Source: Planctomycetaceae bacterium
Lineage (GTDB): Bacteria > Planctomycetota > Planctomycetia > Planctomycetales > Planctomycetaceae
Assembly: GCA_024742875.1 (NCBI GenBank)
Contig: JANSXP010000021.1
Span: forward strand, 1 to 64,000
Reading direction: 5' to 3'
DNA length: 64,000 nt
A program made the translations under genes and the position numbers. Positions within the stretch are counted from its first letter, which is position 1, and each line of letters opens with the position of its first letter. The notes below the pieces were generated by a model that had not been told where the DNA came from, did no database searches, and saw only the letters and a program-made list of their open reading frames with translations. Positions 1,290-34,200 of the stretch are shown one piece after another.

Positions 1290-1715
1290 ATGTCAACACA
1301 GACACTCACCGAACACATGACACTTGAAGCCGCCGAACGCATGCTGGACGCGGCCATTCACAAGTCGGAGTCGCTGGGCGTGGCGATGAACATCGCCATT
1401 GTGGACGCCGGCGCCAATCTGACGGCGTTTCGGCGGATGGATGGCGCCTGGCTGGGCAGCATCGACATTGCCTGCAGGAAAGCGCGCACGGCTCGCTACT
1501 TCGATATGCCCACCGGAGCCATCGGTGAACTTTCCCAGCCCGGCGGCCCGCTGTACAACATCGAACATTCCAATGACGGCCTGATTAGCTTTCCCGGTGG
1601 GTTACCCATCCACAATGAAGACGGACAGGTTGTCGGCGCCATTGGCGTTTCCGGCTCCACCGTGGAAAACGATCATGACGTTGCCGCAGCGGGCCAGTCC
1701 GCATTCTGCAACTAG
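1290..1715 (+). CDS. GlcG/HbpS family protein (DUF336)
   Basis: This 141-residue protein matches the small GlcG/HbpS (DUF336) family over its whole length: N-terminal helix ([17 protein letters not shown]), strand [20 protein letters not shown], the helix around [17 protein letters not shown], and the C-terminal GGLPI...GAIGVSG. Members bind haem or act as accessory or scaffold proteins in various operons; no catalytic role can be assigned here. The ATG at 1290 follows a GGAG at 1279-1282. A longer in-frame extension upstream is antisense to the AraC gene and not credible. It is divergent from the PAS-AraC regulator, a plausible controller, which is inference from position only. Confidence 0.85.
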
Positions 1716-2082
1716 TCGAAAGCCGGTCTTGCCATTGGCCTGCCGGCCAGGAACGGAGCATTCTCACCGAGCGATGGCCGGTGGGAACGCTCCACAGAGT
1801 TTGCGAGGTGCCAGGGCTCAGCTGCCAGCATAGACCGGTTTCCACACGAAAACCGAGAAAACACGCCGGAAGAACGGCAGTCGATTCCAGTTGATTCCAA
1901 TTCCGAACACGTGCAGTACACGTTGAGTTGACGTTGAGAAGACGGTTACAAAACGTTCCAAACGGAGTACCACGGGACGAAAACAGGCAAAACCGACAGG
2001 CGGCCAACTGCCCGCTGGCCTACAATGGCCACTCCGCATGGTCACAGACTGAAGGGGCCGTCCTGCAACCAGAAGGTCGAAC
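1716..2082. other. Intergenic region, no gene seen
   Basis: This 367-bp gap lies between the GlcG-type gene and the DUF1549/DUF1553 gene. Open frames here are short and lack family motifs. Imperfect short direct repeats (GATTCCA/TTGATTCCA around 1885-1900, GTTGA repeats around 1920-1940) are visible. AGAAGG at 2069-2074 is the likely ribosome binding site of the next gene. No convincing promoter or terminator was found. Confidence 0.4.
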
Positions 2083-5058: not shown

Positions 5059-5068
5059 AGGACAAACC

Positions 5069-6559
5069 ATGAGCTTTCCCAACCGTCTGTCCGTGTCTGC
5101 AGAAACTTTTCTGCGGCAGCTGCAATCCACCACCCGCCGCCACTTTCTGCAGGGCAGCGCCACCGGGCTGGGCGCACTGTGGCTGGCATCGCAGGCGTCG
5201 GGCTCTGAACGTCATGTGCCAGAGCACACGGCCGACAATCCACAGAGCCCACTGCCGCCCCCGCTGCCGGCGAAGGCCAAACGCGTCATTTTTCTGCACA
5301 TGATCGGCGCACCCAGTCAGCTGGAACTGTTCGACTACAAGCCGGAGCTTAAGGCGCTCGACGGCAAAGAGTGCCCGCAGTCGTTTCTGGAAGGCAAACG
5401 ATTCGCCTTCATTCAGGGGACACCCAGAATGCTGGGGCCACAGTATCCCTTCGCTCAGCATGGGGACAGCGGGGCGTGGGTGTCGGACCGACTGCCGGAA
5501 TTCGCACAGCATGTGGACGATGTCTGTTTCATCAAAACGATGCAGACGGATCAGTTCAACCACGGGCCGGCTCAACTGATGGTGCACACCGGTCAGGCGC
5601 GAATGGGCTATCCGTCGATTGGTTCCTGGGTCACCTACGGTTTGGGCACAGAAAACACAGACCTGCCCGGATTTATCGTGCTGTTGTCCGGCGGTCGCCA
5701 GCCCCGCGTGGGGAAGGCACTTTGGAGCGGCGGTTTCCTGCCCTCTGTTTACCAGGGCGTGCAGTGTCGATCCACCGGAGAACCGGTTCTGAATATCGCC
5801 AACCCGAATGGTGTGACCCGCAATGAACGCCGCCAGATGCTGGACACGCTCAGTCGTCTGAATGAGCGTTCCAGTCGGGAATTTGGCGATCCCGAAACAC
5901 TCACTCGCATCGCGCAGTATGAGATGGCATTTCGTATGCAGACCGCCGTGCCGCAGGCCATGGATATCACTGACGAGCCGAAACACATTCACGAAATGTA
6001 CGGCACGGAGCCAGGCAAGCAGTCATTCGCCAACAACTGTCTTCTGGCCCGCCGACTGGCCGAAAAAGATGTCCGCTATATCCAGCTGTTCGACTGGGGC
6101 TGGGACTCGCATGGTGCGGCCAAATCGGAAGCGCTGAATGAGGGTTTTAAGTCGAAGTGTCAGCAGGTCGACAGGCCCATTGCCGCGCTGCTGACTGACT
6201 TAAAGCAGCGGGACATGCTCAAAGACACGCTGGTCGTCTGGAGCGGGGAGTTTGGACGCACACCGATGCGGGAAAATCGCGGCGGCACAGAAATGAAGTT
6301 TGTCGGTCGCGACCATAATCCTGGAGCGTTCACACTGTGGATGGCGGGCGGTGGCGTCAAAGGCGGCACCACCTATGGAGAAACAGACGCGGTGGGCTAT
6401 TCGGCCGCCGAAAACGCAGTTCCGCTGCGCGACTTCCACGCCACAATGATGCGGCTGCTGGGATTCGCGCATGACACGTTCAACTACCCGTTTCAGGGTC
6501 TCGACCAGAAGCTCACCGGCGTCAAACCGGCCCGCGTGCTGGAAGACGTCATCGCGTAG
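5069..6559 (+). CDS. DUF1501 family protein with Tat signal
   Basis: This 496-residue protein starts with a twin-arginine export signal (TTRRHFLQGSATGLGALWL, residues ~23-41), implying export in folded form. The remainder matches DUF1501, a sulfatase/alkaline-phosphatase-like superfamily: FLHMIGAPSQLELFDYKP near the start, NHGPAQLMVHTG, the DWGWDSHG segment, and WSGEFGRTPM followed by GRDHNPGAFTLWMAGGGVKGG at the C-terminal metal-site region. AAGGAC precedes the ATG. It forms a two-gene operon with the upstream DUF1549/DUF1553 cytochrome, a pairing known across Planctomycetes and Verrucomicrobia. The biochemical activity is not established. Confidence 0.93.
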   Translation: MSFPNRLSVSAETFLRQLQSTTRRHFLQGSATGLGALWLASQASGSERHVPEHTADNPQSPLPPPLPAKAKRVIFLHMIGAPSQLELFDYKPELKALDGKECPQSFLEGKRFAFIQGTPRMLGPQYPFAQHGDSGAWVSDRLPEFAQHVDDVCFIKTMQTDQFNHGPAQLMVHTGQARMGYPSIGSWVTYGLGTENTDLPGFIVLLSGGRQPRVGKALWSGGFLPSVYQGVQCRSTGEPVLNIANPNGVTRNERRQMLDTLSRLNERSSREFGDPETLTRIAQYEMAFRMQTAVPQAMDITDEPKHIHEMYGTEPGKQSFANNCLLARRLAEKDVRYIQLFDWGWDSHGAAKSEALNEGFKSKCQQVDRPIAALLTDLKQRDMLKDTLVVWSGEFGRTPMRENRGGTEMKFVGRDHNPGAFTLWMAGGGVKGGTTYGETDAVGYSAAENAVPLRDFHATMMRLLGFAHDTFNYPFQGLDQKLTGVKPARVLEDVIA

Positions 6560-6640
6560 CCACGACGGAAGCCCGCGCTGCACGGCGTTTGTTTACAGTG
6601 GGCGTCTGCTTTTCTGCACCTGCCGACTTTTTGGCAGCCA

Positions 6641-6689
6641 GTCATCCAACCGACGTCATCCAACCGACGTCATCCAACCGACGTCATCC
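6641..6689. repeat. Tandem repeat, 3.5 copies of a 14-bp unit
   Basis: The unit GTCATCCAACCGAC is perfectly repeated at 6641, 6655 and 6669, with a partial copy at 6683-6689. The last copy overlaps the stop codon (TCA, 6684-6686) of the convergent ion-channel gene, so the array sits exactly between two gene 3' ends. Confidence 0.95.
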
Positions 6690-7700
6690 GGCTGAAGACA
6701 TCCGCTCGCTGTCCAGATGCTGGACCAGCCGCCCCAGGTCTTCCGAACTGCCAAAGGCAAACAGATTATCGTGGGGCTCGATGGTCAGATCGCCCGGTGG
6801 TGGAAAGAACTTGCTGCCGTCCTCCCGGCAGACCCCCAGCAGCATGATGCCGGACTGCCGCAGATCTGTCTCCTTCAGCTTTCGGGAGACATAGGACGAT
6901 CCCTCCGGCACCTGCACGTCGGCAATTTCCCAGTCCACACCTTCGCTTTCGGCCACCTCCACAAAGTTCTCGATACTCGGCGAGAGCATGAACCGCGCCA
7001 TCCGAATCGCGCCCGATGACAGTGGGTTGATCACGCGTGTGGCGCCAGCCTGGAGCATTTTGTCAGCCGCCCGATCATCGCCCGCCCGAGCGACAATCTG
7101 CAGGCCGCCATTCAGCAGCCGCGCCGACAGCACAACATACAGGTTGTCTGCGTCTGTCGGCAGCACGGTGGTGAGCGCTCGCGCTGTGCGAATGCCCGCA
7201 CGCTCCAGCACTTCGTCCTGAGTGGCATCACCAGACAGAAACAGCCAGCCGGCTTCCCGCATCTCCGGGGAAACCACTTCTGCGTCATCGTCAATGACCA
7301 CAAAGGGCTGATTGCGAGCATGCAGATAACTGCAAAGTTCCTGCCCCATCCGCCCCAGGCCGCAGATGATGAAGTGGCCGGTCAGTCTTCGGATCTCTTT
7401 TTCCATGCGTCGGCGTTCCCAGATAACTCGCAGTTCTGCATTGATAAACGTCTGCCCAAACTGAAAGGCGCTGTAGGCAAAGATTCCCAGCCCCATCGAC
7501 AGATACAGCATGACAAACAGACGGGTGGCATCATTCAGCGGCTCGGGCTGCTCAGATCCCACCGTCGCCAGCATGATGAAGGCGATGTAAAAACAGTCGA
7601 GAAACCGCATGTTCGTCAGCGCACACAGGCCGGCGGCTCCAAACAGCACCATGGCCAGGATCAGCAGGGGAATCTGCAGCAGTCGACGCATCTGTCTCAT
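6684..7700 (-). CDS. Two-TM potassium channel with TrkA-N (RCK) domain, atypical selectivity filter
   Basis: The protein is 338 residues. TM1 is ~residues 7-28, the pore helix and filter ~36-54, TM2 ~60-80, then a cytoplasmic RCK/TrkA-N Rossmann domain starting at HFIICGLGRMGQEL (GLGRMG, 114-119) and a TrkA-C-like end (~240-330). This is the plan of Kch/MthK-type channels, gated by ligands bound to the RCK ring. The filter position reads TVGSEQP (46-52) where K+ channels have TVGYGD/E, so ion selectivity is uncertain. The start is ATG at 7700; a second in-frame ATG lies at 7691. The gene is convergent with the DUF1501 gene and divergent from the DUF1559 gene. Confidence 0.88.
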   Translation of the reverse strand: MRQMRRLLQIPLLILAMVLFGAAGLCALTNMRFLDCFYIAFIMLATVGSEQPEPLNDATRLFVMLYLSMGLGIFAYSAFQFGQTFINAELRVIWERRRMEKEIRRLTGHFIICGLGRMGQELCSYLHARNQPFVVIDDDAEVVSPEMREAGWLFLSGDATQDEVLERAGIRTARALTTVLPTDADNLYVVLSARLLNGGLQIVARAGDDRAADKMLQAGATRVINPLSSGAIRMARFMLSPSIENFVEVAESEGVDWEIADVQVPEGSSYVSRKLKETDLRQSGIMLLGVCREDGSKFFPPPGDLTIEPHDNLFAFGSSEDLGRLVQHLDSERMSSAG

Positions 7701-8000
7701 GGCGGGGATAATAAGTGGCTCGCAGGAGACAGGCCAGAGCGGACAAGCCTTGTTCAGGCGTTCACCAATTTTTCGGAATGTTGGTCACGTTTGTGAAATG
7801 TTAGACAAACCGCCTCATCGGCCCGTTCAGCACCACGTGACCCGCATTCCGCTCGCACCGGGCACGCACGGCGGTCGCCGTCCAGAGCCCCGCCTGGGCA
7901 GTCGACTGACTTGCACGCTGGTGCACTGAGTGCAAGGATTCTCTCTCCAGGGAAGGCACCGCGCCGTTCACCGTTTACGTCCGTTGATGAAGGGTTCAAG
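7701..8000. other. Divergent intergenic region
   Basis: This 300-bp spacer separates the channel gene (minus) from the DUF1559 fusion gene (plus), so promoters for both should lie here. I could not identify consensus -35/-10 pairs with confidence. AAGGG at 7990-7994 is the ribosome binding site that supports the ATG at 8001. Confidence 0.4.
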
Positions 8001-12379: not shown

Positions 12380-12489
12380 GCGCCAGCCTTCTTGTATGAA
12401 CTGACCAAAACAACCCAATGGGCCTCACCTGGTCACGGTCTGATGTGTGATCGATCGCAATGACACCGCGATCTCTCGCCCCCACCGCC

Positions 12490-12636
12490 GCCGGCTGAAC
12501 CGCCGCCGGCTGAACGGCCGCCGGCTGAACGGCCGCCGGCTGAACGGCCGCCGGCTGGATTGCCGCGGCTGAACGGCCGCCGGCTGAACGGCCGCCGGCT
12601 GGATTGCCGCGGCTGAACGTCCGCGGCTGAACTGCC
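12490..12636. repeat. GC-rich tandem repeat, ten units of 14-15 bp
   Basis: Ten consecutive units of GCCGGCTGAACGGCC type run from 12490 to 12636. Two units end in GGATTGCC instead of GAACGGCC, and three are 14-bp versions lacking one C. The interspersed variants show a higher-order pattern (plain, plain, variant, short), typical of slippage and unequal exchange. The array lies in the 289-bp gap upstream of the FGE-like lipoprotein gene, ending 32 nt before its ATG. Confidence 0.92.
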
Positions 12637-12668
12637 GACCACCATTGCTTCCATCAGGCCGACAGACG

Positions 12669-13532
12669 ATGCCACCGATCCGACAGAATCTTTCCTGCCC
12701 CGGCACGCTTCGCCCACTTGGGATCGCCTGCCTCCTGCTGGCCCTGGGCTGCTCGTCATCAACGGACAGTGGCCCCTCCACACGGCAGGCCGACACAGCA
12801 CAGGAAACAGAGACCCGAACGCTCTCCGGCGACGAGGCACCTCCATCGCCGCTGTCCGCAGATCGGCAGTCGTGGCCGGCGGAGATCACCAACCGATTTG
12901 GCATGACATTCTCGCTGGTCACGATTGACCCAACACGGCCTGACCACAACGACGCGTTCCCTCAGCAGACCTACTACATTCAGCAAAGCGTGCTGACAGG
13001 CAGCCAGATGGACGCATTCAACAGAGCGGCCGTGCTGGGCGGGGTCTATACAACCGACCCGCGGCGGTCTCTGCCGACGCCACTCGTCCAGCCGAACGTT
13101 TCACTGCCTCGGGGCAACTCACCATCGGAATGGAGTGAGTGTTTCTGGTACGCCCGCGCCCTCTCCACGCTGGATCCCGATTTTGACTATCGTTTGCCGA
13201 CGCGGAAAGAGTGGACCTTCGCCTGCAAAAGCGGTTACGAACAACGCTGCGACGGCGACGACAGGAACGCCTACCGCTGTCGGGGCATGCAGGACCCCAA
13301 CGGTCCCGATGCAGAAGCGGTGGCCGAACGCTGGGGCGAGCACGGACAGTCGGCCGTGCTGATGGGATACTGGAAGAACAACTGGGGCGTTCACGATGAT
13401 CGCGAAGAACCGGATTGCCTGTGTGATCACTGGACGATCTGTAACCCGGATGGTGACGACAGTCTCAATGAACGCATCACCGCGCGATTCATTCTGATGC
13501 CCAAACAAAACTCCACCGACCGTTCGCGGTGA
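12669..13532 (+). CDS. Lipoprotein with degenerate formylglycine-generating-enzyme (SUMF1)-like domain
   Basis: The protein is 287 residues from the ATG at 12669. It has a lipoprotein signal with lipobox LALGC (Cys about residue 28), a low-complexity linker, then an FGE-sulfatase/SUMF1-like region: NRFGMTFSLVTIDP at its start, QSVLTGSQMDAFN, YRLPTRKEWTFACKSG (the LPTEAEWEYA-type motif), and a shortened end. The last typical FGE segment is not recognisable, so catalytic sulfatase activation is doubtful; many planctomycete members are binding or structural. A TTG start at 12645 is possible but lacks a ribosome site. It is convergent with the SCO1-ASPIC gene. Confidence 0.75.
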   Translation: MPPIRQNLSCPGTLRPLGIACLLLALGCSSSTDSGPSTRQADTAQETETRTLSGDEAPPSPLSADRQSWPAEITNRFGMTFSLVTIDPTRPDHNDAFPQQTYYIQQSVLTGSQMDAFNRAAVLGGVYTTDPRRSLPTPLVQPNVSLPRGNSPSEWSECFWYARALSTLDPDFDYRLPTRKEWTFACKSGYEQRCDGDDRNAYRCRGMQDPNGPDAEAVAERWGEHGQSAVLMGYWKNNWGVHDDREEPDCLCDHWTICNPDGDDSLNERITARFILMPKQNSTDRSR

Positions 13533-13595: not shown

Positions 13596-16217
13596 TTACT
13601 GGTCTTCGACAATCTGGAGCCGTTGATTCGTATCGATCGGGCCATCAACCACCTGTGTGGTGCCGGTCGGCCAGGTGACTTCGATGCGATCCACTGTTTC
13701 TGCGGTTCCCAGCCCAAAATACAGCGGAAGATCGCTCTGACCAAGATAGCCGGACGCCCCGGTCTTCACCTGGCTTTGCCGCTGACCGGTCGTGTGCACT
13801 CGCACCACCGCGCCCAGCGCGTCACGGTTGCTTCCTGTCCCCTGCACGTCGACCTTCAGAAAACGAATTTCGCTCTGCTGACGGTTGCTGCGCAGGAACT
13901 GCGGACGGGTGTTGAACTCGTTGGTGACGATATCCAGATCACCGTCGTTGTCAAAATCATAGATCACACTGGAACGGCTGCCGGTGGCCGACCAGACGAC
14001 CCACTCTCCTTTTCGCGATTTGCGGAGCCTGTTGTCCGCGTCCTGTGCATCAAAGTTCAGCGAGAACCACGGTGCGATCTGCTGATCACGCGGGCGGGGT
14101 TCAATCTGAGTTGCAAAATGAGCGTCGTAGAAGCGCTGGCCTCCCGCATTGAGCAGCAGTGAATTGGTGCTGTAGCGATAAGGAAAGCACATGCTGGACG
14201 TGAGAAACGCATCGGCAAAACCGTCAGCATCGATGTCACCGCTGCTCAGCCCCCACGGCCAGTAGTTCTCAGCGTGCAGCGCGTCAGACACTTCTTTGAA
14301 CGTGCCGTCCTCTGCCTGCTGAAAGAACGCGTTGCCGTAGATGCTTCGTCCTTCACTTCGCAGAAACTCTTCCGGCCAGGTGATGTCCGCTTTCTGCTTT
14401 TCCCGGTCCGGTCCCACATCGACGCTCATATCGGAGTGCATGTCCGTCAGGAACACGTCAAACTTCCCGTTGTTATCAAAGTCCGCCACTGTCACGCCCA
14501 TCGTTCCCCACGGGGTCGCCTGGAAAAACTCATCCGTGCGGTCGGTAAAGCGGTCACCCTGCTCATTGATGTATAACGTGTCGTGCCCCTGCATGTTGCA
14601 CACATACAAATCGGGCCAGCCGTCATTGTTGGCATCAAACGCCACCGCATCACCCGACCAGGACGCGTCGTCCTGCAGGCCAAACTGCTCTGTGACATCT
14701 TCAAACTGATTGTTGCCCAGGTTGCGATACAGGCGTGAACACTCCGACAACTCCGGTGCGAGGTGGCCGCTGAAAGCGTCCGGCCGTCCCACAAAATAAT
14801 CGAGCTGCACCGACGGCTGCGAATTTGCCGCATCGGTGCGAACCTGCCGTTTTTCTTCCGTGGTGAATCGCCCAACGTTGCAGACGTACAGGTCCAGCAG
14901 ACCATCTTTGTCGTAGTCGAAGAACGTTCCCTTGGATGAATGGCCCGTGTATGCCAGCCCCGAACTCTTCGTGCGGTCGACAAACGTCCCGTCCACGTTT
15001 TCGAAGAACGAATTTTCTGCGCGAATGGACGTCACAAACAGATCCGGGTCGCCGTCGTTATCCGTGTCGGCAAACGAAGCGGCCACCGAAATTCGGTCTT
15101 CCCGCTCCGCCCCGCTGTCGGCCACCTTTTCGAATCCCCCCTGCGGCGTTCCCCGCCACAGTTCATTGGGGCCGACCTGCGACGTAAAGTAGATGTCCGC
15201 CACGCCGTCCCCGTCGACGTCGGCAACGCTCACGCCATTCCCGTGGTCATAGTGATTCACGAGCAGGCGATGACGCTGATCGTCAACGATCTGCGGCCGA
15301 AACGTCACTCCCAGTTCCTCCACGCAGTCCTCAAACTGAAAGCCGGGAGCCAGGCCGAGTTCCTTCATCGTGGCCGCTTCAAGCGCACCCACATCTGCCA
15401 GCCAGCGATCGTCGAGAATCCCCGGCGGCTGGGCCATGTGCTGAGCCGATTCGGGCAGATCGGTCAGTTGAGCGGCATCCGGCACAAAGTCCGGCAGCAC
15501 TTCGTCAATAGCCGACCACAGTTGCTCGATCCCCTCAGTGCTTTGAGAATCAAAATAGCCCCGAATTCGTTGTGCTCTGTCGAACAGTACAAATTTGGAT
15601 TCATGGGCGATGGGAATCAGTGGGTCTTCCGGGTTCTCCGCCACCGCCATCCCCAGGTTGTTGCGACTGAAATTCCAGATCGCTTCCCGATCTCCCGTGA
15701 GGAACGCCCACATGTCAAAGTCGGCCTCCAAAGATGTCCCGTAGTCCTTCAGCACGTCGGGAGTGTCAAATTCGGGATCAACCGAGATCGTCAGCAGCCG
15801 TACCCCTTCCGTGCCGGATGCCTTGAGACGATCCTGCAGCTGCTTCATGGCGGCAGACTGCTGGGGACACGTCCCCGGACAGCGGGTGAACACAAAACAC
15901 ACCACGGTCACGGAGTTTTGAATCTGGTCCTGACCAAACTCCTCGCCATTTTGATCGCGAAACAGAAAACTGCCCACCGGCTTCGCCTCGCCCGCCACAA
16001 TGATGTCTGACGGCTGCGTCTGCGGGTCAGAAGTCTCCGGCCGTGTTTCTGCGCTGCCGGTATCCGTTCCTGCGCCCTGGGGCGTGTCTGATCTGCTGCA
16101 GCCTGCGGCAGTGATCAGAACCGCGTACAAAAGCATGCCGGCTGCGGACCGCAGACTCGTCCTCCCTGACAGCCGGGAGCAGACAGACAGATACACACGA
16201 TCAGATGGCGCCGACAT
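13596..16217 (-). CDS. Lipoprotein fusing a SCO1/SenC domain to VCBS/FG-GAP repeats and an ASPIC/UnbV domain
   Basis: The protein is 873 residues from the ATG at 16217 (GGTGAGG just upstream; the open extension to 16301 is unlikely). A lipobox TAAGC places the lipid Cys near residue 40. Residues ~70-240 are a SCO1/SenC thioredoxin-like domain with both copper-binding features: the CPGTCP motif (Cys113, Cys117) and a His at ~205 in HESKFVLFD. Residues ~320-760 carry seven FG-GAP/VCBS calcium-loop repeats of type DxDxDGxxDLYV, followed by an ASPIC/UnbV end with GALGAVVRV-like and VTWPTGTTQ segments. SCO proteins deliver copper to cytochrome oxidase or act as thiol oxidoreductases. It is the last gene of a five-gene minus-strand cluster with a seven-haem cytochrome. 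Confidence 0.9.
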   Translation of the reverse strand: MSAPSDRVYLSVCSRLSGRTSLRSAAGMLLYAVLITAAGCSRSDTPQGAGTDTGSAETRPETSDPQTQPSDIIVAGEAKPVGSFLFRDQNGEEFGQDQIQNSVTVVCFVFTRCPGTCPQQSAAMKQLQDRLKASGTEGVRLLTISVDPEFDTPDVLKDYGTSLEADFDMWAFLTGDREAIWNFSRNNLGMAVAENPEDPLIPIAHESKFVLFDRAQRIRGYFDSQSTEGIEQLWSAIDEVLPDFVPDAAQLTDLPESAQHMAQPPGILDDRWLADVGALEAATMKELGLAPGFQFEDCVEELGVTFRPQIVDDQRHRLLVNHYDHGNGVSVADVDGDGVADIYFTSQVGPNELWRGTPQGGFEKVADSGAEREDRISVAASFADTDNDGDPDLFVTSIRAENSFFENVDGTFVDRTKSSGLAYTGHSSKGTFFDYDKDGLLDLYVCNVGRFTTEEKRQVRTDAANSQPSVQLDYFVGRPDAFSGHLAPELSECSRLYRNLGNNQFEDVTEQFGLQDDASWSGDAVAFDANNDGWPDLYVCNMQGHDTLYINEQGDRFTDRTDEFFQATPWGTMGVTVADFDNNGKFDVFLTDMHSDMSVDVGPDREKQKADITWPEEFLRSEGRSIYGNAFFQQAEDGTFKEVSDALHAENYWPWGLSSGDIDADGFADAFLTSSMCFPYRYSTNSLLLNAGGQRFYDAHFATQIEPRPRDQQIAPWFSLNFDAQDADNRLRKSRKGEWVVWSATGSRSSVIYDFDNDGDLDIVTNEFNTRPQFLRSNRQQSEIRFLKVDVQGTGSNRDALGAVVRVHTTGQRQSQVKTGASGYLGQSDLPLYFGLGTAETVDRIEVTWPTGTTQVVDGPIDTNQRLQIVEDQ

Positions 16218-16321
16218 AACCTCACCGCTGGACTGAAGAGTTCTGGAAACAAGGCCACGGATTTCGCAATGACACGTGTAACCGCCTCCGGCGGCGTGCA
16301 ACCACCTTCAGCGGCGCGTGG

Positions 16322-17494
16322 CTACGGAAGGGGCCGATACCCGACATCACGACACGATTCAGCGGCAGGCACGAAGTGTTCGTCCAGTGATGGATCGGTG
16401 GTCAGAAATGTATTGGAATCCGCGGAAACTGTACCACGAAGGTCGGGTGTCTTTGCGTGAAAAACGCAATCCACAACACTGTTGGGCGCAATTATATCCA
16501 CTTCATACGGATGGCCTGGACGTGAGCCGTCAGACGCATCGTTGTCGATGAACAGGCAGCGGGAATACTGGCTGCCCGGACCGTGGTCATCAACCCCATT
16601 CCAGTTGTCCCAAAACGTACAGCGGCTCACTCTGGCCCGCGAGCCGGGAAACACGGTCAACGCCCCTGAGCCATGTTTGGCGTTGTAGGTCAGCCCAAAC
16701 CTGTTCTTAACATCTTCCATGCCCGTGTTGCCAATGTTGCCCACAAACAGGCAGTTTTCCAGTTGGGCGAGGCTGCCCTCCAGCACATCCACCGCTGAGC
16801 CGGTGGCCGGGCACCGATTGCCGATAAACCGGCAGTTCAGAAACTGCACAGGGTTCGCGCACACACCCTGATGTTCGATTGAAACAGCGCCTCCGCACAG
16901 CATCGTCGCGTTGTTCTCAAACAGAATCGCATCAAACACGGGAGACGAGTTGCCGAAAACTTTCACCGCGCCGCCATCGAGCTGAAAGAACAGGCCGCGC
17001 TGCAACACGGCTGACTCCCGCCCCAAAAACTCCCGGGGCACCCCCGTGCTGATCGCCACGCCTCCCGCGTCCCGAATCACCAGGTGGCGAATCTGCGTCG
17101 CCTCTGTCAACCCGTGCCCGCAATACAGGACGTGGCTGACAACGGCTCGCTCAGGATCACTGGCGGAGCGACCAGAGAGAATCGTCCCCTCTCGGCCTTC
17201 AATCGTAACGCCCTCGTGACGCGCCGTGACTGCCAGCAGGCAAAACGACGGACGAGAAGCATAATGCACGCCAGGCAGCAGAATGAGCCTTCTGTCGTCC
17301 GTCGCCGTGGCGGCCAGGTCAAGCGCCGCCTGCAGATCGTCGCCCGGCGCGGCGGTCACGGGTCCCTCCGGTCGCTCAGGCTTCGCTTCCACCGGCTGCG
17401 TCGTTGGCGTCTGCGTCTCACAGCCGGCCGCAATCGCGCAGCACGCAAGGAGCAACCAGAATCGCCCGCCCAACATGTTCCCCGTCACAGACAT
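16322..17494 (-). CDS. Lipoprotein with right-handed parallel beta-helix repeats
   Basis: The protein is 390 residues from the ATG at 17494 (GGTGAAAAG upstream). The signal ends at AAGC (lipid Cys ~25). After a short Pro/Glu linker the body shows the pectate-lyase-like coil pattern: repeated 20-25-residue units with hydrophobic ladders and asparagines, such as VTIEGREGTIL, IRHLVIRDAGGVAIS, FDAILFENNATMLCGGAVS, FLNCRFIGNRC, LENCLFVGN, VSRCTFWDNWNG and YSRCLFIDNDA. Regular cysteines line the coils. Such proteins bind or process polysaccharides or serve as surface scaffolds; I see no catalytic motif. It lies 34 nt after the small cupredoxin-like gene and 104 nt before the SCO1-ASPIC gene. Confidence 0.85.
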   Translation of the reverse strand: MSVTGNMLGGRFWLLLACCAIAAGCETQTPTTQPVEAKPERPEGPVTAAPGDDLQAALDLAATATDDRRLILLPGVHYASRPSFCLLAVTARHEGVTIEGREGTILSGRSASDPERAVVSHVLYCGHGLTEATQIRHLVIRDAGGVAISTGVPREFLGRESAVLQRGLFFQLDGGAVKVFGNSSPVFDAILFENNATMLCGGAVSIEHQGVCANPVQFLNCRFIGNRCPATGSAVDVLEGSLAQLENCLFVGNIGNTGMEDVKNRFGLTYNAKHGSGALTVFPGSRARVSRCTFWDNWNGVDDHGPGSQYSRCLFIDNDASDGSRPGHPYEVDIIAPNSVVDCVFHAKTPDLRGTVSADSNTFLTTDPSLDEHFVPAAESCRDVGYRPLP

Positions 17495-17528
17495 TTGCTT
17501 TTCACCCTGTTGCCCCCGAAGCAGACCA

Positions 17529-17969
17529 CTAGCGGGAGCCAGCGGCCAGCAGGAACACCTCCTGCTCGTGCTCCCTGGAAAGCTGTCCACAGCCCTGAAT
17601 AATTCGCAATGGCCAAAGGCCTTTCGCCAGTTGCACGTCCATCGACGAGACGCCGCCCGGCAGGACAACCACCGCCCGCTGCGTCTGCTGCTGTTCGACC
17701 GTATAGACAAAATCCTCACTGGCAATTTCAATGTGCACTGGCTGACCGGCGACAACGCGCACAATCCTGCGGCCATCTACGGTTTCAAACTCACTGACGG
17801 GATGAAGCTGACCGGCTGTGATGGTGAAGGCGGCGGATAACAGCCGCTTCGCCCCCGAAGTCTTCGACGGGCAGCACACGCTGATGGCACACGTCACAAC
17901 CATGATCGCCCCCAGAGCGGCCCCCACAGCGGTCGCCTGTCTGCCGGATTTCCGCGGAGCCTCTGTCAT
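17529..17969 (-). CDS. Small membrane-anchored protein with a cupredoxin / COX2-like fold (tentative)
   Basis: The protein is 146 residues. One TM helix lies at ~15-34, then a ~95-residue exported domain. The segments VVAGQPVHIEIASEDFVYTV (72-91), VVLPGGVSSMDVQL and the C-terminal GLWPLRIIQGCG resemble the beta-strand order of cytochrome oxidase subunit II periplasmic domains, with SEDFVYT at the place where COX2 has SxDVxHS. The CuA ligand set is not present: only one Cys (~127) and no matching His-Cys-x3-Cys. This is a fold guess from pattern. Its ATG overlaps the stop of the multihaem cytochrome gene (ATGA, 17966-17969), a firm sign of coupling. Confidence 0.65.
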   Translation of the reverse strand: MTEAPRKSGRQATAVGAALGAIMVVTCAISVCCPSKTSGAKRLLSAAFTITAGQLHPVSEFETVDGRRIVRVVAGQPVHIEIASEDFVYTVEQQQTQRAVVVLPGGVSSMDVQLAKGLWPLRIIQGCGQLSREHEQEVFLLAAGSR

Positions 17970-19828
17970 GGAGATGGCTCCCGGGAACGCGCGGCCTTGA
18001 TCAGACGATTCAGCGTCTGCTGGTGGCGCTTTGCCGCAGCCGCATCGCCGGATGCATTCAACAGGGTAATGATACGGCGTCTTTGCGGAAGAGCGGTGGG
18101 GTCAATTTCCAGCGACCTCTCCAGCGCTGCAATCGCCTCCTGTGTGCGGCCCAGCGACGCGAGCAGATCGGCCCGCTGCGACTGAATTACGGCACTCCAG
18201 GGAGCGTCCTGCAGAATGCGATCCACCATCTGCAGCGCTTCGGCAAATTGCCCTTGCTGCTGCAGGGCGATGCTGCGTGCCTCCAGCGCGGACTCGTCTG
18301 CCGGTGTTTGCTCAAGCGCCCGCTCCGCCAAACGCTGAGCCGTTTCCAGGTCGCCCAGTTTCAGCAGCAGCCACGCCGCAGCCGTAGCGGCAGCCGTATC
18401 CACACCGCGGTCCACGGCCGGGCCGAGCAGTCGCAGCGCTGCATTCGCATCGGTTCGTGTGGCGGCCGTCGATTCCAGCTGCAGCCCCAGCGCCCTTTGA
18501 ATTTCGGCACGCGACAGGGGAAAGTCGTCCTTTTGAAACAAGGCCGGCTCATGACGTGGGCGCGGTTTTCCGGATGTCACATAGCGACGAAGAATGCGAT
18601 GGTCGGTCTGCGCGGTGTGCGGCACATCGGACGCACTCGCCGCCGGCATGTGACAAACGATGCAGGAGTCTTCCGGGGAGTCGAGATGTCGTTGGGACAG
18701 CGGCACAGAGCACCCTTTCTGCGGGGCAGCATGGCAGTTCAGACAGCGGTCCCGATAGAAGGCGACGCGCTGCTGTGCGGCGGGAATCCCGTGAGGCGAG
18801 TGGCAGCTGATGCACCCCAGCTGTCCGCCACTTTTTTGATAGCAGACACTGGCCGTCATCTGCTCCGGCTGGCTGACGGCCTCGAACTCGGTGGCCCCCG
18901 CAGCCGGACCCACGTTTTCCACCAGCACCGCCCAGATATCGGACACTGCATCGCCGGGGCGAAAGTCAAAGCTGGAACGGCCGTCGCGGACGATTCTGGC
19001 TTTGCCGTGCAGATGGCACTGGTAACAGACACTGTCGCGTCGCCGCGGCTCCAGTCGGTCCGGGTTCACCATCTCATCACGCCCACCCTCGCCAAACTCG
19101 TGAAACTGGACGTGCTGATGTCCGGGTCCGTGGCATCGTTCACAGCTGATGGAAGGTTCATGAAACGGAGGATCGAGAAAACGATCGTCGCTGGCTGGAT
19201 CGGTGTTCAGATGCCCGGCATGGCAGAACATACAGTCGCCCGTCATGCGTCGACCAAAACGCGGATGACGCTCCGGTTGGTAACCGGGCGACAGCCCCCA
19301 CTTTTGCGAACCTGTGTACCACGTCAGCGGGGACTGATAGAAACTCCCATGGCGGCTGTGAACAAACGAGTAGCCGCGCTGCCCCGAGCCGATCGCAAAC
19401 TCCACCGACTCCCGCTGGCGATAGATCGGCCCGTCACTGTCCAGCTGCGATTCACTGTGAAACATCCGGCCCGCATCATCTGTGGTCACTTCGTACTCGC
19501 GGCCTCCCTCAGAAAACTGAAACGGCGTCGAGAAACTCACCGCGGCGTCTGTCGGCGAGAGCAGATTGATCGATCGCGCCATGGGGTGCGACGATGTGTA
19601 TTGTTCATAGATCTGCTGATGGCAGCCCGCACAGCGCTGGCTGCCCACGTAAACATCGTGCCGCCGCTCATCCAGCGGCAGACGGTCTGGTGCGATCGCT
19701 CGTGCTTCTGCCGACGACTGCGTCTGCGTCTGCGCCGGGGGGATCTGCCGGGGCGGACGCGGGCCGCAGCCCGGCAGAACGACAATGATCCCCCAACAGA
19801 AAATCGTTCGCAGGACGCGCGCGGTCAT
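17966..19828 (-). CDS. Seven-haem c-type cytochrome lipoprotein with C-terminal TPR domain
   Basis: The protein is 620 residues. A signal sequence is followed by a probable lipid Cys at 21 (VVLPGC). Seven CxxCH haem sites lie at residues 66, 199, 229, 268, 339, 362 and 389, i.e. CAGCH, CMFCH, CERCH, CYQCH, CISCH, CLNCH and CIVCH. The spacing resembles cytochrome c-554/nitrite-reductase-type multihaem proteins. Residues ~440-615 form tetratricopeptide repeats (LLKLGDLETAQRLAERALEQTP, FAEALQMVDRIL, TQEAIAALERSLEIDP). It likely carries electrons at or outside the inner membrane while the TPRs bind partners. It overlaps both neighbours by 4 nt: the upstream ASPIC gene (19825-19828) and the downstream cupredoxin-like gene. 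Confidence 0.92.
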   Translation of the reverse strand: MTARVLRTIFCWGIIVVLPGCGPRPPRQIPPAQTQTQSSAEARAIAPDRLPLDERRHDVYVGSQRCAGCHQQIYEQYTSSHPMARSINLLSPTDAAVSFSTPFQFSEGGREYEVTTDDAGRMFHSESQLDSDGPIYRQRESVEFAIGSGQRGYSFVHSRHGSFYQSPLTWYTGSQKWGLSPGYQPERHPRFGRRMTGDCMFCHAGHLNTDPASDDRFLDPPFHEPSISCERCHGPGHQHVQFHEFGEGGRDEMVNPDRLEPRRRDSVCYQCHLHGKARIVRDGRSSFDFRPGDAVSDIWAVLVENVGPAAGATEFEAVSQPEQMTASVCYQKSGGQLGCISCHSPHGIPAAQQRVAFYRDRCLNCHAAPQKGCSVPLSQRHLDSPEDSCIVCHMPAASASDVPHTAQTDHRILRRYVTSGKPRPRHEPALFQKDDFPLSRAEIQRALGLQLESTAATRTDANAALRLLGPAVDRGVDTAAATAAAWLLLKLGDLETAQRLAERALEQTPADESALEARSIALQQQGQFAEALQMVDRILQDAPWSAVIQSQRADLLASLGRTQEAIAALERSLEIDPTALPQRRRIITLLNASGDAAAAKRHQQTLNRLIKAARSREPSP

Positions 19829-21639
19829 GGTGACTCTTTCAACAACAGCTGCTGATTCAAAGAGACATCCGAGAGCGTTTCCCGGTGACCGTTAGGCCAC
19901 GTCACCTGCAGTGTGGCAGTCTCGGTTGCAGGCACGTCTCCCATCCCGAAAAACAGGACATGTTCATGAGACGAACAAAAGCTGGTGCCCCCCGCGATGA
20001 ATTCGGTCCACGACTGCCCGCCGACCGTCACAGTGGCCTGCAGGCCGATGGCCGAACGATTGGACTGCCGCGCCAGCGGAATGACTGTCAACCACGTGCC
20101 GGACGTGCCGGACGTGCCGTCATTGCGCAGCAACTCAACACGTTCGTTCTGGTGGAGAATTGCCAGATCCGGGTCGCCGTCCTGATCATAGTCCCCGGCC
20201 GCCACGCCGCGCCCCACATAAAGACGGGCGAAATAGTCCGACGCGCCTGCGGAAACATCGTGCCAGCGACTTCCGTCAAATGACAGCACCTGGGCCTTTT
20301 GCGCAAATCCGTCACCGTCGGCGTTGTTGGAATCGATGTGACCGTTGGCCACAAACAAATCCGGTCGGCCATTGCGATCAAAGTCGTACATCACCGTGCC
20401 GAATCCCAGTTTCGACATTGAGATCGGAAACAGCCGATGCTTGCCCGAGACATCATGCAGCCCCACTTCACCCAGGTTTCTGTAAAGCGTATTGGACTCC
20501 CCGGTGAAATGCGTCAGAAACAGATCCAGCGTGCCGTTGCGATCATAATCACCGGCGGCCACCCCCATGCTGGCCTGCATGGCGCCGGCGCCATTCAGGC
20601 CGCCTCCCATTCGCAAAGACGATTCCTGGAATTTGCCGTCACCCTGATTCAAAAAATAGAAGTTGGCGGTGGTGTCGTTGGCAACGTAAATGTCGGGATG
20701 CTGATCGCCATTCAAATCGGCAATCACCACTCCCAGCGCCTTGCTGCCCTCGCCGACCAGGCCCAGATCTGCAGCCACCTCGTCGAAGGTGCCGTCGCCA
20801 TTGTTGCGAAAGAATTCATCCGCCCATGCCGGCAGCTGACGCGGATGACACAAAGCCGGGCGGCCGTCTTTCTCACACGGAAACGGATCCCGGGGGTCAT
20901 ACTGCAGATAATTGCACACATACAGATCCAGATCGCCATCGCGATCCACGTCGCCCCAGGCGGCCGATGACGACCAGCGGGCGGCCGCGTTGCGGAGCTG
21001 ATCTGTGACCTCACGAAAGGTCCCGTCACCGTTGTTCTGCCAAAGACAGTTCTCACCCACATTGGAGACGAAAATGTCATCAAACCCGTCGTTGTTGAAG
21101 TCTCCGATCGTCACCCCCTGGCCGTAGGCATGTTCGCGAATGCCGCACAGACGACTCACATCAAGAAAGCGGCCGTCTGCTGTCTGCGTATACAGTGCAT
21201 CGGAGGGGTTGCTCTGCCCCGTGTCAGCCGTCGCCCCGCCCTGAACGCAGAACAGGTCCAGCCGCCCATCCTGCTCGACATCCAGCCAGCCCAGGCCCGC
21301 GCCAATGGATTCCACCATCAGCAGCTCACCCTGTGCCCCGTTCGTGTAAATGTGATCCAGACCGAGCGACTCTGCCACCGGTTCAAAGCTGCCGGAAAAC
21401 AGGACGGCAGGCTCCGTCGACGGGGGTTCGCTCTGTGGTTCCGACCCAGGACGGGTGGCCGCCCCGCTTTGCGACACGGAGCGATTCGCATCCCCGGCGT
21501 CATGGCCCGTGGACTCTTCGGCAGCGCCCTGTCCGGCTGTCGGCGAGGCCGCGGGATCCTTTGTGGAATCCGTCTGCCCGCAACCGCACATGACGGCACA
21601 CAGCAGCACCCGGACGATGACGGCACAAGAGCGCAACAT
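19825..21639 (-). CDS. VCBS/FG-GAP repeat lipoprotein with ASPIC/UnbV domain (CRTAC1-like)
   Basis: The protein is 604 residues from the ATG at 21639; an in-frame extension to 21729 would run through the upstream terminator and is rejected. The signal ends MCGC (lipid Cys ~20), followed by a Ser/Pro/Glu-rich linker. Seven calcium-loop repeats follow (DVEQDGRLDLF, DFNNDGFDDIFV, DVDRDGDLDLYV, DLNGDQHPDIYV, DYDRNGTLDLFL, DFDRNGRPDLFV, DYDQDGDPDLAI), predicted to build a seven-bladed propeller. The C-terminal ASPIC/UnbV module has the GTSFCSSHEHVLFFGMG and VTWPNGHRE segments. The stop overlaps the start of the multihaem cytochrome gene by 4 nt, so it appears to be the first gene of the module. 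Confidence 0.92.
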   Translation of the reverse strand: MLRSCAVIVRVLLCAVMCGCGQTDSTKDPAASPTAGQGAAEESTGHDAGDANRSVSQSGAATRPGSEPQSEPPSTEPAVLFSGSFEPVAESLGLDHIYTNGAQGELLMVESIGAGLGWLDVEQDGRLDLFCVQGGATADTGQSNPSDALYTQTADGRFLDVSRLCGIREHAYGQGVTIGDFNNDGFDDIFVSNVGENCLWQNNGDGTFREVTDQLRNAAARWSSSAAWGDVDRDGDLDLYVCNYLQYDPRDPFPCEKDGRPALCHPRQLPAWADEFFRNNGDGTFDEVAADLGLVGEGSKALGVVIADLNGDQHPDIYVANDTTANFYFLNQGDGKFQESSLRMGGGLNGAGAMQASMGVAAGDYDRNGTLDLFLTHFTGESNTLYRNLGEVGLHDVSGKHRLFPISMSKLGFGTVMYDFDRNGRPDLFVANGHIDSNNADGDGFAQKAQVLSFDGSRWHDVSAGASDYFARLYVGRGVAAGDYDQDGDPDLAILHQNERVELLRNDGTSGTSGTWLTVIPLARQSNRSAIGLQATVTVGGQSWTEFIAGGTSFCSSHEHVLFFGMGDVPATETATLQVTWPNGHRETLSDVSLNQQLLLKESP

Positions 21640-21734: not shown

Positions 21735-22802
21735 CTAGAACTCGCCCAGAACCATGCGGTCGTTGCGAACACCCAGCTTGTACCGAACGCCGTGGTCCAG
21801 ATTCTCACTGAGAAAACGGACTGAGCCGTCGCACAGCGTGACCTGAATGCCGCCCGTGTGGAAGCTACTTGGGCTTTCACAGCGAAGGTCGTTGGCTCCC
21901 TGGAGCCAGTTCGGGTTGGTGTTGTTGATGGGGTTACGCATCGTGTGCACAGCCGCCAGTGGGCTCACCCAGCCGGTGTAGCTGCTGTGGTTGAAATCGA
22001 AAGTTGCCCCGTTGCCACCACGCCAGTGCATGTTTTCGAAGACACCAACGGTGTTGGCCGTTCCGTCCACGATGTCGCGAATGCTCTGGCTGCCGTTGTA
22101 GCGGAAGACACCATTCGTGCGTCCCTGGTGGTTGGGATCCTCACCATTGACCCAAGGTGTACCTGCACCACCACGAGTTCCCAGGTTGCCGGGCAGGGCA
22201 TCGTTCACGAGCGCGTCGGGAACCGCACCGCAGTCTTTCCGGCCACCCCAGAAGTGTCCCAGGTTACCGACGTAGTCCGTACCACCTTTGACCGACGTTC
22301 CGTTCCAGCGATAACCACCGTTTGTCTGTCCGGTGCGAACGACAGGATGCGGGCTGGAAGGACAGATGTACGCAGCCATTGGCGTCTGGGCCAAAGCCGT
22401 GTTGATACCAATACTGTTGTGGTTGCGGTCGCCCTGAATGGTACCGCCCGCACCGTCGTCAACATTGACGTCGTACGAGAAAGACTTGTACAGGTTGGCC
22501 TGCTCAATGTAAGGCAGAATGGCCACGAGCCAGGACCACTGAGGGATCTGGTTTCCGCCAATCACGCCGCCGTTCCAGCGGTTCTGGTTGTGCGGGAACG
22601 TGTTAAACACGTCGTGATAGTTGTGCATAGCAAGACCAATCTGCTTCAGATTGTTCTTACACTGTGTTCGACGGGCTGCCTCACGGGCCTGCTGAACGGC
22701 CGGCAGCAGCAGAGCGATCAAAATTGCGATGATGGCAATTACAACAAGCAGCTCAATCAGCGTGAATGCTTTTGATCTTGGAGATTGTCTCGATAACTTC
22801 AT
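21735..22802 (-). CDS. DUF1559 prepilin-type protein
   Basis: The protein is 355 residues. The N-terminus is a class III (type IV pilin-like) signal: a basic leader, then the site KAF|TLIELLVVIAIIAIL (cleavage between Ala12 and Phe13, Glu at mature +5), continuing into ALLLPAVQQAREAARRTQCKNN, the DUF1559 signature. The body has the usual DUF1559 blocks ending in TLCDGSVRFLSENLDH (the H-X9-DG motif region). These proteins are massively expanded in Planctomycetes and probably form pseudopili or surface fibres. GGAA precedes the ATG. It follows the TPR protein gene on the same strand after 69 nt. Confidence 0.95.
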   Translation of the reverse strand: MKLSRQSPRSKAFTLIELLVVIAIIAILIALLLPAVQQAREAARRTQCKNNLKQIGLAMHNYHDVFNTFPHNQNRWNGGVIGGNQIPQWSWLVAILPYIEQANLYKSFSYDVNVDDGAGGTIQGDRNHNSIGINTALAQTPMAAYICPSSPHPVVRTGQTNGGYRWNGTSVKGGTDYVGNLGHFWGGRKDCGAVPDALVNDALPGNLGTRGGAGTPWVNGEDPNHQGRTNGVFRYNGSQSIRDIVDGTANTVGVFENMHWRGGNGATFDFNHSSYTGWVSPLAAVHTMRNPINNTNPNWLQGANDLRCESPSSFHTGGIQVTLCDGSVRFLSENLDHGVRYKLGVRNDRMVLGEF

Positions 22803-22871: not shown

Positions 22872-24071
22872 TTAAAGTGGAGCCTGTCCACTGTTTAGTC
22901 TGATCAGAATGGCTCTGGCGACCAGTTCGTCTCCGCAGCTGGCGGCATAAGAGGCGATTTTTGCCAGCGTTTCCACGGAAATGGCGGCGGTGTTCTCCTG
23001 CTGCAGAATCTCCTTCTGGATGTCTTTTCCAACCCGGGCGATCTGTTCTGCAGCGACCGCCTCGTCCAGTTTTCCCAGCCGCCGTCGACAGGACGCCAGC
23101 TGGTGCCAGGTCGTCCAGTCCATGCTGAACTCTGCAATCGACGCCAGATAATGTGCCTCTGCGGCCACGAAATCCTCGTCCTGCGCGGCCAGCCAGCCCC
23201 GGGACTTGAGAATCAGGTAGTGTTTCGAGCCGTCCTCCGCCTGTGCCAGCAGGGAGCGGACCCTGTCCACATCAAATTCCCGAATGGCTGAAGCCAGCTC
23301 AAAGTGGATGAGCTCCGGATTCGCGGGAAATTTCTCCCTGAGCTCCTGAAAGACCTCCAGATACTGCGGTAAAGACGCGCGTGTGCTGGCGGAGTCGGAG
23401 GCGGAGACGCTGTCGAGCAACTGAATGGTTCTGGCCACCTGAAACAGCTCGCTGTCAGGATCCGAACCGAGCCACTCGGAATTCTTCGTAAACCCGTTGG
23501 AGAAGCTCAGCTCTTCGGCAAGTACCAGATAGGCATAAGCATCGGGAGGCTCCGCCTGAGCGCGGATCGCATCGTGAATGGCGTCCAGCATGGCCCTGCG
23601 CTGCAGGGTCACAGCATAGAAGAAGATCAGCCGGCGGCGGGTGGTGATGGAGCCGGGCTTTTGCCTGATCATGCGTTTGAGAGTCTCGACCCCGTCCAGC
23701 GGTCGATTCAATTCTCCAAATTGCAAATCGCAGGCCGCAATCAGAGCGTTGTAAGCACGCTCACTGCTCGCCGGAATGGCGAGCAGATGGGTAACAGCGT
23801 CCTCCAGAGAACCGGACTGATATTCGGCTTCGGCAAGAAACGTCAGCGCCTCGTCCGGTTGGGAGCCGCGCTCCACCCACTGTCCGGCGACCTGCCTGAG
23901 TTGCTCCCAGTCTTCTTCGTCGGCGGCGGCAGTGCACGCTTTGCGGAAGTCGTCATCACTCCAGCGAGTCAGCACAACAGCGGTGAGGCTGACCACGACC
24001 AGAATTGCCAGAGCGGCCAGAATGGCTCCCCATTTTGTGCGGGCAGCAGGTCGTGCGGATTCACTACTCAT
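22872..24071 (-). CDS. Membrane-anchored TPR-type protein
   Basis: The protein is 399 residues. There is a short basic cytoplasmic tail and one TM helix (~16-36), and the rest is alpha-helical with tetratricopeptide-like spacing: DEALTFLAEAEYQSGSLEDAVTHLL, LKRMIRQKPGSITTRRRLIFFY, FVAAEAHYLASIAEFS and a final CRRRLGKLDEAVAAEQIARVG. There is no catalytic motif, so a scaffold role is likely. It is followed by the DUF1559 prepilin and then the ASPIC/multihaem module on the same strand; TPR proteins commonly accompany ASPIC/UnbV proteins, which makes it a candidate upstream member, though a terminator lies between. Confidence 0.8.
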   Translation of the reverse strand: MSSESARPAARTKWGAILAALAILVVVSLTAVVLTRWSDDDFRKACTAAADEEDWEQLRQVAGQWVERGSQPDEALTFLAEAEYQSGSLEDAVTHLLAIPASSERAYNALIAACDLQFGELNRPLDGVETLKRMIRQKPGSITTRRRLIFFYAVTLQRRAMLDAIHDAIRAQAEPPDAYAYLVLAEELSFSNGFTKNSEWLGSDPDSELFQVARTIQLLDSVSASDSASTRASLPQYLEVFQELREKFPANPELIHFELASAIREFDVDRVRSLLAQAEDGSKHYLILKSRGWLAAQDEDFVAAEAHYLASIAEFSMDWTTWHQLASCRRRLGKLDEAVAAEQIARVGKDIQKEILQQENTAAISVETLAKIASYAASCGDELVARAILIRLNSGQAPL

Positions 24072-30806: not shown

Positions 30807-30942
30807 CGCGGCAGACTATGTCAGGTCCCCCCCAATTGCCAGTGATTGTGGGAACGATCCGTGTAGTGACGAACGCCCGATTCCGATAAATTGCAGGCAG
30901 ACGGCAGGCTGATGCCGCCCCGACGAATTTCGGAATGTGCTC

Positions 30943-34200
<3,258 letters not shown>

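Follow-up and report, generated by a model that had tools for sequence, protein, structure and literature searches.

What kind of unit is formed by the five genes that lie on the minus strand between positions 13596 and 21639 of the 64,000-nucleotide stretch of planctomycete DNA analysed here (hereafter, the window)? The host genome assembly amounts to 8.18 Mb in 168 contigs, and both its relatives and its PSCyt, DUF1559 and DUF1501 genes mark it as planctomycete. According to a check of open reading frames and Pfam domains, g1 (19825-21639) encodes a CRTAC1-like lipoprotein with an FG-GAP propeller and a UnbV_ASPIC domain (PF13517, PF07593), and g2 (17966-19828) a heptahaem c-type cytochrome carrying seven CXXCH motifs and a C-terminal TPR region. 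g3 (17529-17969) encodes a membrane-anchored cupredoxin of the COX2 family with a degenerate CuA site, as judged from a family profile, from PF00116 matches in relatives and from a table of ligand residues. g4 (16322-17494) encodes a right-handed beta-helix lipoprotein (PF13229). Finally, g5 (13596-16217) encodes a lipoprotein in which an SCO1 domain (PF02630; 15567-15974), with CxxxC and His identified by Pfam and a ligand alignment, is fused to an FG-GAP propeller and a UnbV_ASPIC domain (PF13517, PF07593). The g1/g2 and g2/g3 pairs each share 4 nt (ATGA), g3 and g4 are separated by 34 nt, g4 and g5 by 104 nt, and a convergent neighbour gene ends at 13532, beyond the g5 side. The original prediction had described this minus-strand run with the same overlaps and gaps, the seven CXXCH motifs and the SCO1 and ASPIC domains, and coordinates and Pfam agree with it, apart from g3, for which the window protein alone gives zero Pfam matches. 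It had also counted four lipoproteins among the five products. Lipobox-like N-termini are indeed found in g1, g2, g4 and g5 and not in g3, with the reservation that the box of g2 (LPGC) is atypical. A scan of the window against Rfam gave zero matches.

The conservation survey covered 58 relatives, from which about 85 neighbourhoods were fetched. The complete g1-g5 order is found on one strand in two further members of the genus (G001 and G003), with 45-63% identity for g1, g2, g4 and g5 and about 32-34% for g3. In G024, g1-g2-g3-g4 are contiguous and g5 is convergent; the same four genes are contiguous in G156 as far as the contig end, and g2-g3-g4 are contiguous in G130. The g1 orthologues adjoining g2 are likewise 45-63% identical. 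Because the gene order recurs in relatives, it is not due to chance. Co-conservation of the five families had been set beforehand as the result on which the proposal of a common module would stand or fall, and on that point it stands. The idea of a single five-gene module does not hold, however. Instead, gene neighbourhoods in the relatives indicate that the locus is made up of two separable conserved blocks, A and B, which are joined in several genera.

Block A begins at 24071 and has the order TPR, DUF1559, g1, g2. Its first gene (22872-24071, minus strand) encodes a TPR-repeat protein with weak TPR matches, and its second (21735-22802, minus strand) a DUF1559 pseudopilin-like protein (PF07596, together with the N-terminal methylation motif PF07963). 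This order is found in about 12 genera (12 genus codes represented). A DUF1559 gene lies upstream of g1 in nearly all g1-g2 loci, the TPR gene lies beyond it in most loci where the contig reaches, and both mostly share the strand of g1-g2. In 16 of the 18 genomes with a g1 orthologue (the host genome counted), the DUF1559 gene that best matches the window protein is the one beside g1. The two exceptions are G001, with no DUF1559 gene beside g1, and G007, whose contig stops short. In the genomes searched that lack a g1 orthologue, the best DUF1559 match scores about 180 bits or below. These neighbourhoods place the upstream edge of the unit past g1, with the DUF1559 and TPR genes belonging to the conserved unit.

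A terminator-like hairpin with an 11-bp stem and a T-run (21707-21681, minus strand) separates the DUF1559 gene from g1 and outranks all others listed for the region. It had been taken as the upstream boundary of the module, with the convergent gene as the downstream one. Both features are present, but the hairpin lies inside conserved block A, since the DUF1559 and TPR genes upstream of it are co-conserved with g1-g2; the block starts two genes further upstream. A strong hairpin with a T-rich tail is found at this spot in 22 of 22 linked loci. By the same criterion, it is found at 10 of 18 other DUF1559 genes and in 7 of 120 other same-strand gaps. The stem sequences of the DUF1559-g1 hairpins differ between loci. 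The hairpin fits a retained attenuator, or else a boundary between separate transcription units.

Block B, composed of g3, g4 and g5, occurs in about 10 genera. In the large majority of the roughly 20 distinct loci compared with the help of the g3 profile, g3 adjoins g4, and g4 adjoins g5. Breaks in the adjacency table correspond to contig ends or to SCO matches that had not been counted as SCO; wherever the contig is long enough, g4 is almost always flanked by g3 and g5. g4 is rare in the family (15 of 150 genomes). The g3-g5 genes are also present in other planctomycete families, where 9 of 11 g5 genes without g4 have g3 immediately upstream. Block B is often away from g2, and most g2 loci are without it. 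When away from block A, it usually lies near another ASPIC gene, and often near a multihaem gene too. In G409, one 1340-aa frame unites the g3 domain, a propeller with ASPIC and a beta-helix; an SCO domain was not detected in it. At L190, a COX2-like domain, a propeller with ASPIC and a beta-helix are fused in one frame (3906-7925), and a nearby gene (1404-3314) encodes a cytochrome b561-type domain together with nine CXXCH motifs. The surroundings of block B at L174 (161-19900) include a PQQ-propeller/malectin protein, a 1016-aa five-haem TPR cytochrome, a TPR-ASPIC protein, a NosD-like beta-helix protein and an OEP efflux protein; the gene layouts of L172, L173 and L176 resemble this one.

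The haem motifs of the g2 cytochrome, in block A, are CAGCH, CMFCH, CERCH, CYQCH, CISCH, CLNCH and CIVCH. All seven are invariant in an alignment of 55 g2 sequences from relatives, which bears out the heptahaem assignment; two extra cysteines (residues 276 and 320 of the haem domain as aligned and modelled, 18530-19669, minus strand) and several histidines are also invariant. About six conserved distal histidine candidates can be counted in the window g2 for seven haems. Since the extra cysteines are likewise invariant in g2 genes without block B, they provide no tie between the blocks. The host genome has 14 ASPIC matches and three g2-type cytochromes, every one of which adjoins an ASPIC gene. 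A model of the haem domain, built without haems (pLDDT 86.8), gives structural matches to OcwA (Z 15.8 over 294 residues), an S-layer undecahaem cytochrome (11.2) and MccA (8.6), the next unrelated match being at 5.4. Because a plain Foldseek search with this model gave nothing significant, the match to OcwA rests on a VIA second look and on the sequence profile of g2, which also retrieves OcwA, MtrA, c554 and MccA.

OcwA is a cell-surface nonahaem terminal reductase of Thermincola potens (PDB 6i5b) and MccA an octahaem haem-copper sulfite reductase (PDB 4rkm). The two have in common a beta-sheet domain not seen in the rest of the NrfA family, and OcwA has an open haem 2 (PMC6703420). In g2, a beta-rich insert lies between haem motifs 1 and 2, as in OcwA, and the predicted model has the fold shared by OcwA and MccA, including this insert. 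For the g2 haem domain, the prediction is a fold close to that of OcwA, on which the domain superposes and with which it shares c554-like haem motifs, and less close to that of MccA. In contrast, g2 has seven CXXCH motifs where reductases of this type have eight or nine, so that it has two haems fewer than OcwA and one haem motif fewer than MccA. It also carries C-terminal TPRs in place of the three-helix bundle of OcwA, and its gene neighbours are different. The copper-binding cysteines near haem 2 of MccA are C399 and C495; in the MccA chain sequence of our alignment, cysteines at positions 411 and 507 have the matching spacing of 96. Like MccA, g2 has an extra cysteine near the haem core, but the second extra cysteine of MccA, located just after a CHMP motif, has no equivalent in g2, where no conserved cysteine follows the CHMP motif. 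An MccA-type haem-copper site in g2 was rejected because this second copper ligand has no counterpart. Another point of comparison is offered by HZS-like gene clusters, some of them in planctomycetes, in which an FG-GAP CRTAC1 gene is flanked by multihaem and propeller genes (PMC12758564). The window locus also has an FG-GAP CRTAC1-type gene beside a multihaem gene; however, its cytochrome belongs to a different family and HZS-like subunits were not seen there. Quinol dehydrogenase, porin and oxidase genes were not recognised among the window genes scanned.

In block B, the product of g3 had been called cupredoxin-like. The fold family is right, and the protein can be described more exactly as a COX2-family member with a degenerate CuA site. 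A single-sequence search with g3 returned mostly noise and a family profile was required. This profile matches COX2 of a caa3 oxidase (2yev_B) with E=2.4e-17, as well as many other COX2 chains, and PF00116 scores above cut-off in some g3 relatives. Profile evidence of this kind indicates that g3 is homologous to the periplasmic domain of COX2. The g3 model (pLDDT 82.8) matches cupredoxins, COX2, N2O reductase CuA domains and nitrosocyanin at Z 10-11, with ties. The first His of the CuA site is replaced in 25 of 25 g3 sequences (by Tyr in 23 of them), and all 25 also lack the first Cys; one Cys is kept throughout, and a His after it is common. In the window protein, Tyr89 stands in place of the His ligand and Cys127 is the only Cys of the site. 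The CuA site is thus lost in all 25, and copper may not bind there at all. The copper-chaperone-type domain first recognised in g5, on the other hand, keeps its ligands: CxxxC and His are present in all aligned copies except that of L187, where CxxxC is lost and g3 does not adjoin. SCO proteins are established chaperones of the COX2 CuA centre (PMC7558416). The locus resembles a COX2/SCO system in having a COX2 homologue and an SCO domain with CxxxC and His encoded in one cluster; it differs by the loss of CuA ligands in g3, by the fusion of SCO to a CRTAC1-type propeller and by having no oxidase alongside. In the literature searched, we found no description of an intact SCO domain next to a COX2 relative that lacks CuA.

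How blocks A and B relate to each other was approached with a quick tree of g2 haem domains. The label "near block B" requires 6 changes on this tree, versus 11.1 in shuffles, with 0 of 500 shuffles as low. Block-B-linked g2 genes are clustered, yet they do not form one clade. This clustering supports a repeated or retained association of A with B and not a fixed unit. Our preferred reading, to which we give a probability of roughly 45%, is that two conserved envelope modules are joined at the locus, namely a multihaem redox module and a linked copper/thiol sub-module.

Beyond an envelope redox module with a copper/thiol part, the function that we infer is as follows. The product of block A would be a multihaem redox protein at the cell surface or in the periplasm. 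As a lipoprotein cytochrome, g2 would belong structurally with c554, OcwA and MccA, and its haem array would deliver electrons to a substrate or take them from it, probably at a haem that lacks a distal His ligand. The g1 propeller, the TPRs and the co-inherited DUF1559 pseudopilin would serve as scaffold, partner or export/anchoring parts. The hairpin after DUF1559 would allow the amount of pseudopilin to differ from that of g1-g2, or would place it on a separate transcript. In the sub-module formed by block B, the SCO domain of g5, carried on its own propeller, would act on g3. Because CuA is lost, g3 would most likely be a docking, thiol or single-copper relay protein and not an electron-transfer CuA protein. 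g4 would act as a scaffolding lipoprotein. At loci that combine both blocks, B would probably maintain or feed the redox function of A. A bolder version, which we hold to be unlikely, is that a COX2-family domain devoid of CuA and an SCO domain on a CRTAC1 propeller constitute a new copper or thiol device that has a Tyr/Cys site and specifically serves a surface multihaem enzyme of OcwA/MccA type.

The two blocks might also share no more than a neighbourhood, A being an independent redox or surface unit and B a copper-homeostasis unit unlinked to g2. Each block does occur apart from the other, g5 and g3 are found in other families without block A, and the patchy distribution is consistent with loss or with horizontal spread. 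We consider this somewhat unlikely, given that g2-g3-g4 are contiguous in several genera (that of the window; G024, G130 and G156), that the g2 genes linked to B cluster on the tree, and that B, when apart from A, keeps its usual proximity to other ASPIC genes and, often, multihaem genes.

More improbable still is that g3-g4-g5 are assembly factors for the ordinary haem-copper oxidase of the organism, with the SCO domain of g5 metallating the CuA site of COX2 and g3 acting as an adaptor. The chaperone role of SCO proteins (PMC7558416) and the COX2-like nature of g3 speak for this. However, oxidase genes were not recognised next to block B, COX2-like matches are far more widespread than block B, and another SCO domain of the genome (C145:6112-6519), which could serve the oxidase, lies some 0.5 kb away from a COX2-like match (C145:7029-7448). 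Finally, propeller, CuA-like cupredoxin, NosD-like beta-helix and SCO make up the identical combination of folds seen in nitrous-oxide reduction, which would suggest a convergent system resembling nitrous oxide reductase; the g3 model matches the CuA domains of that enzyme at Z about 10, and the G409 fusion unites cupredoxin, propeller and beta-helix. This is very improbable, as the propeller is of the FG-GAP type, g3 has no CuA ligands and g4 does not match the NosD model. Membership of the nos system itself (NosD/N2O reductase) was rejected on the same absence of ligands and on the fact that g4 matches PF13229 only.

The reading of two joined envelope modules relies on parts of known kinds, an OcwA/MccA-related multihaem cytochrome, an SCO domain, a COX2-family domain and CRTAC1-type propellers. 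The original prediction could not match the set to any described pathway; in keeping with this, we found no description of the module in the literature searched on CRTAC1, ASPIC/UnbV, DUF1559 and TPR-multihaem proteins. Planctomycetes have many CRTAC1/ASPIC proteins and DUF1559 pseudopilins, and we know of no role assigned to them. The locus links one specific CRTAC1/ASPIC protein and one DUF1559 orthologue to a cytochrome and thereby offers a concrete test system. That an intact SCO domain is paired here with a COX2 relative unable to form CuA bears on roles of SCO besides CuA building.

The rest of the window harbors other features. A tandem array with 15/44-bp units (12487-12637) lies immediately upstream of an FGE-like gene (12645-13532), and a 15-bp tandem repeat of 8.7 copies (50767-50897) is located within a large open reading frame (45598-51348). 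On the plus strand, a single 1087-aa frame (30937-34200) matches radical SAM, AMMECR1 and Memo domains. A PSCyt1/DUF1549/DUF1553 gene followed by a DUF1501 gene, a pair common in planctomycetes, is found at 2083-6559.
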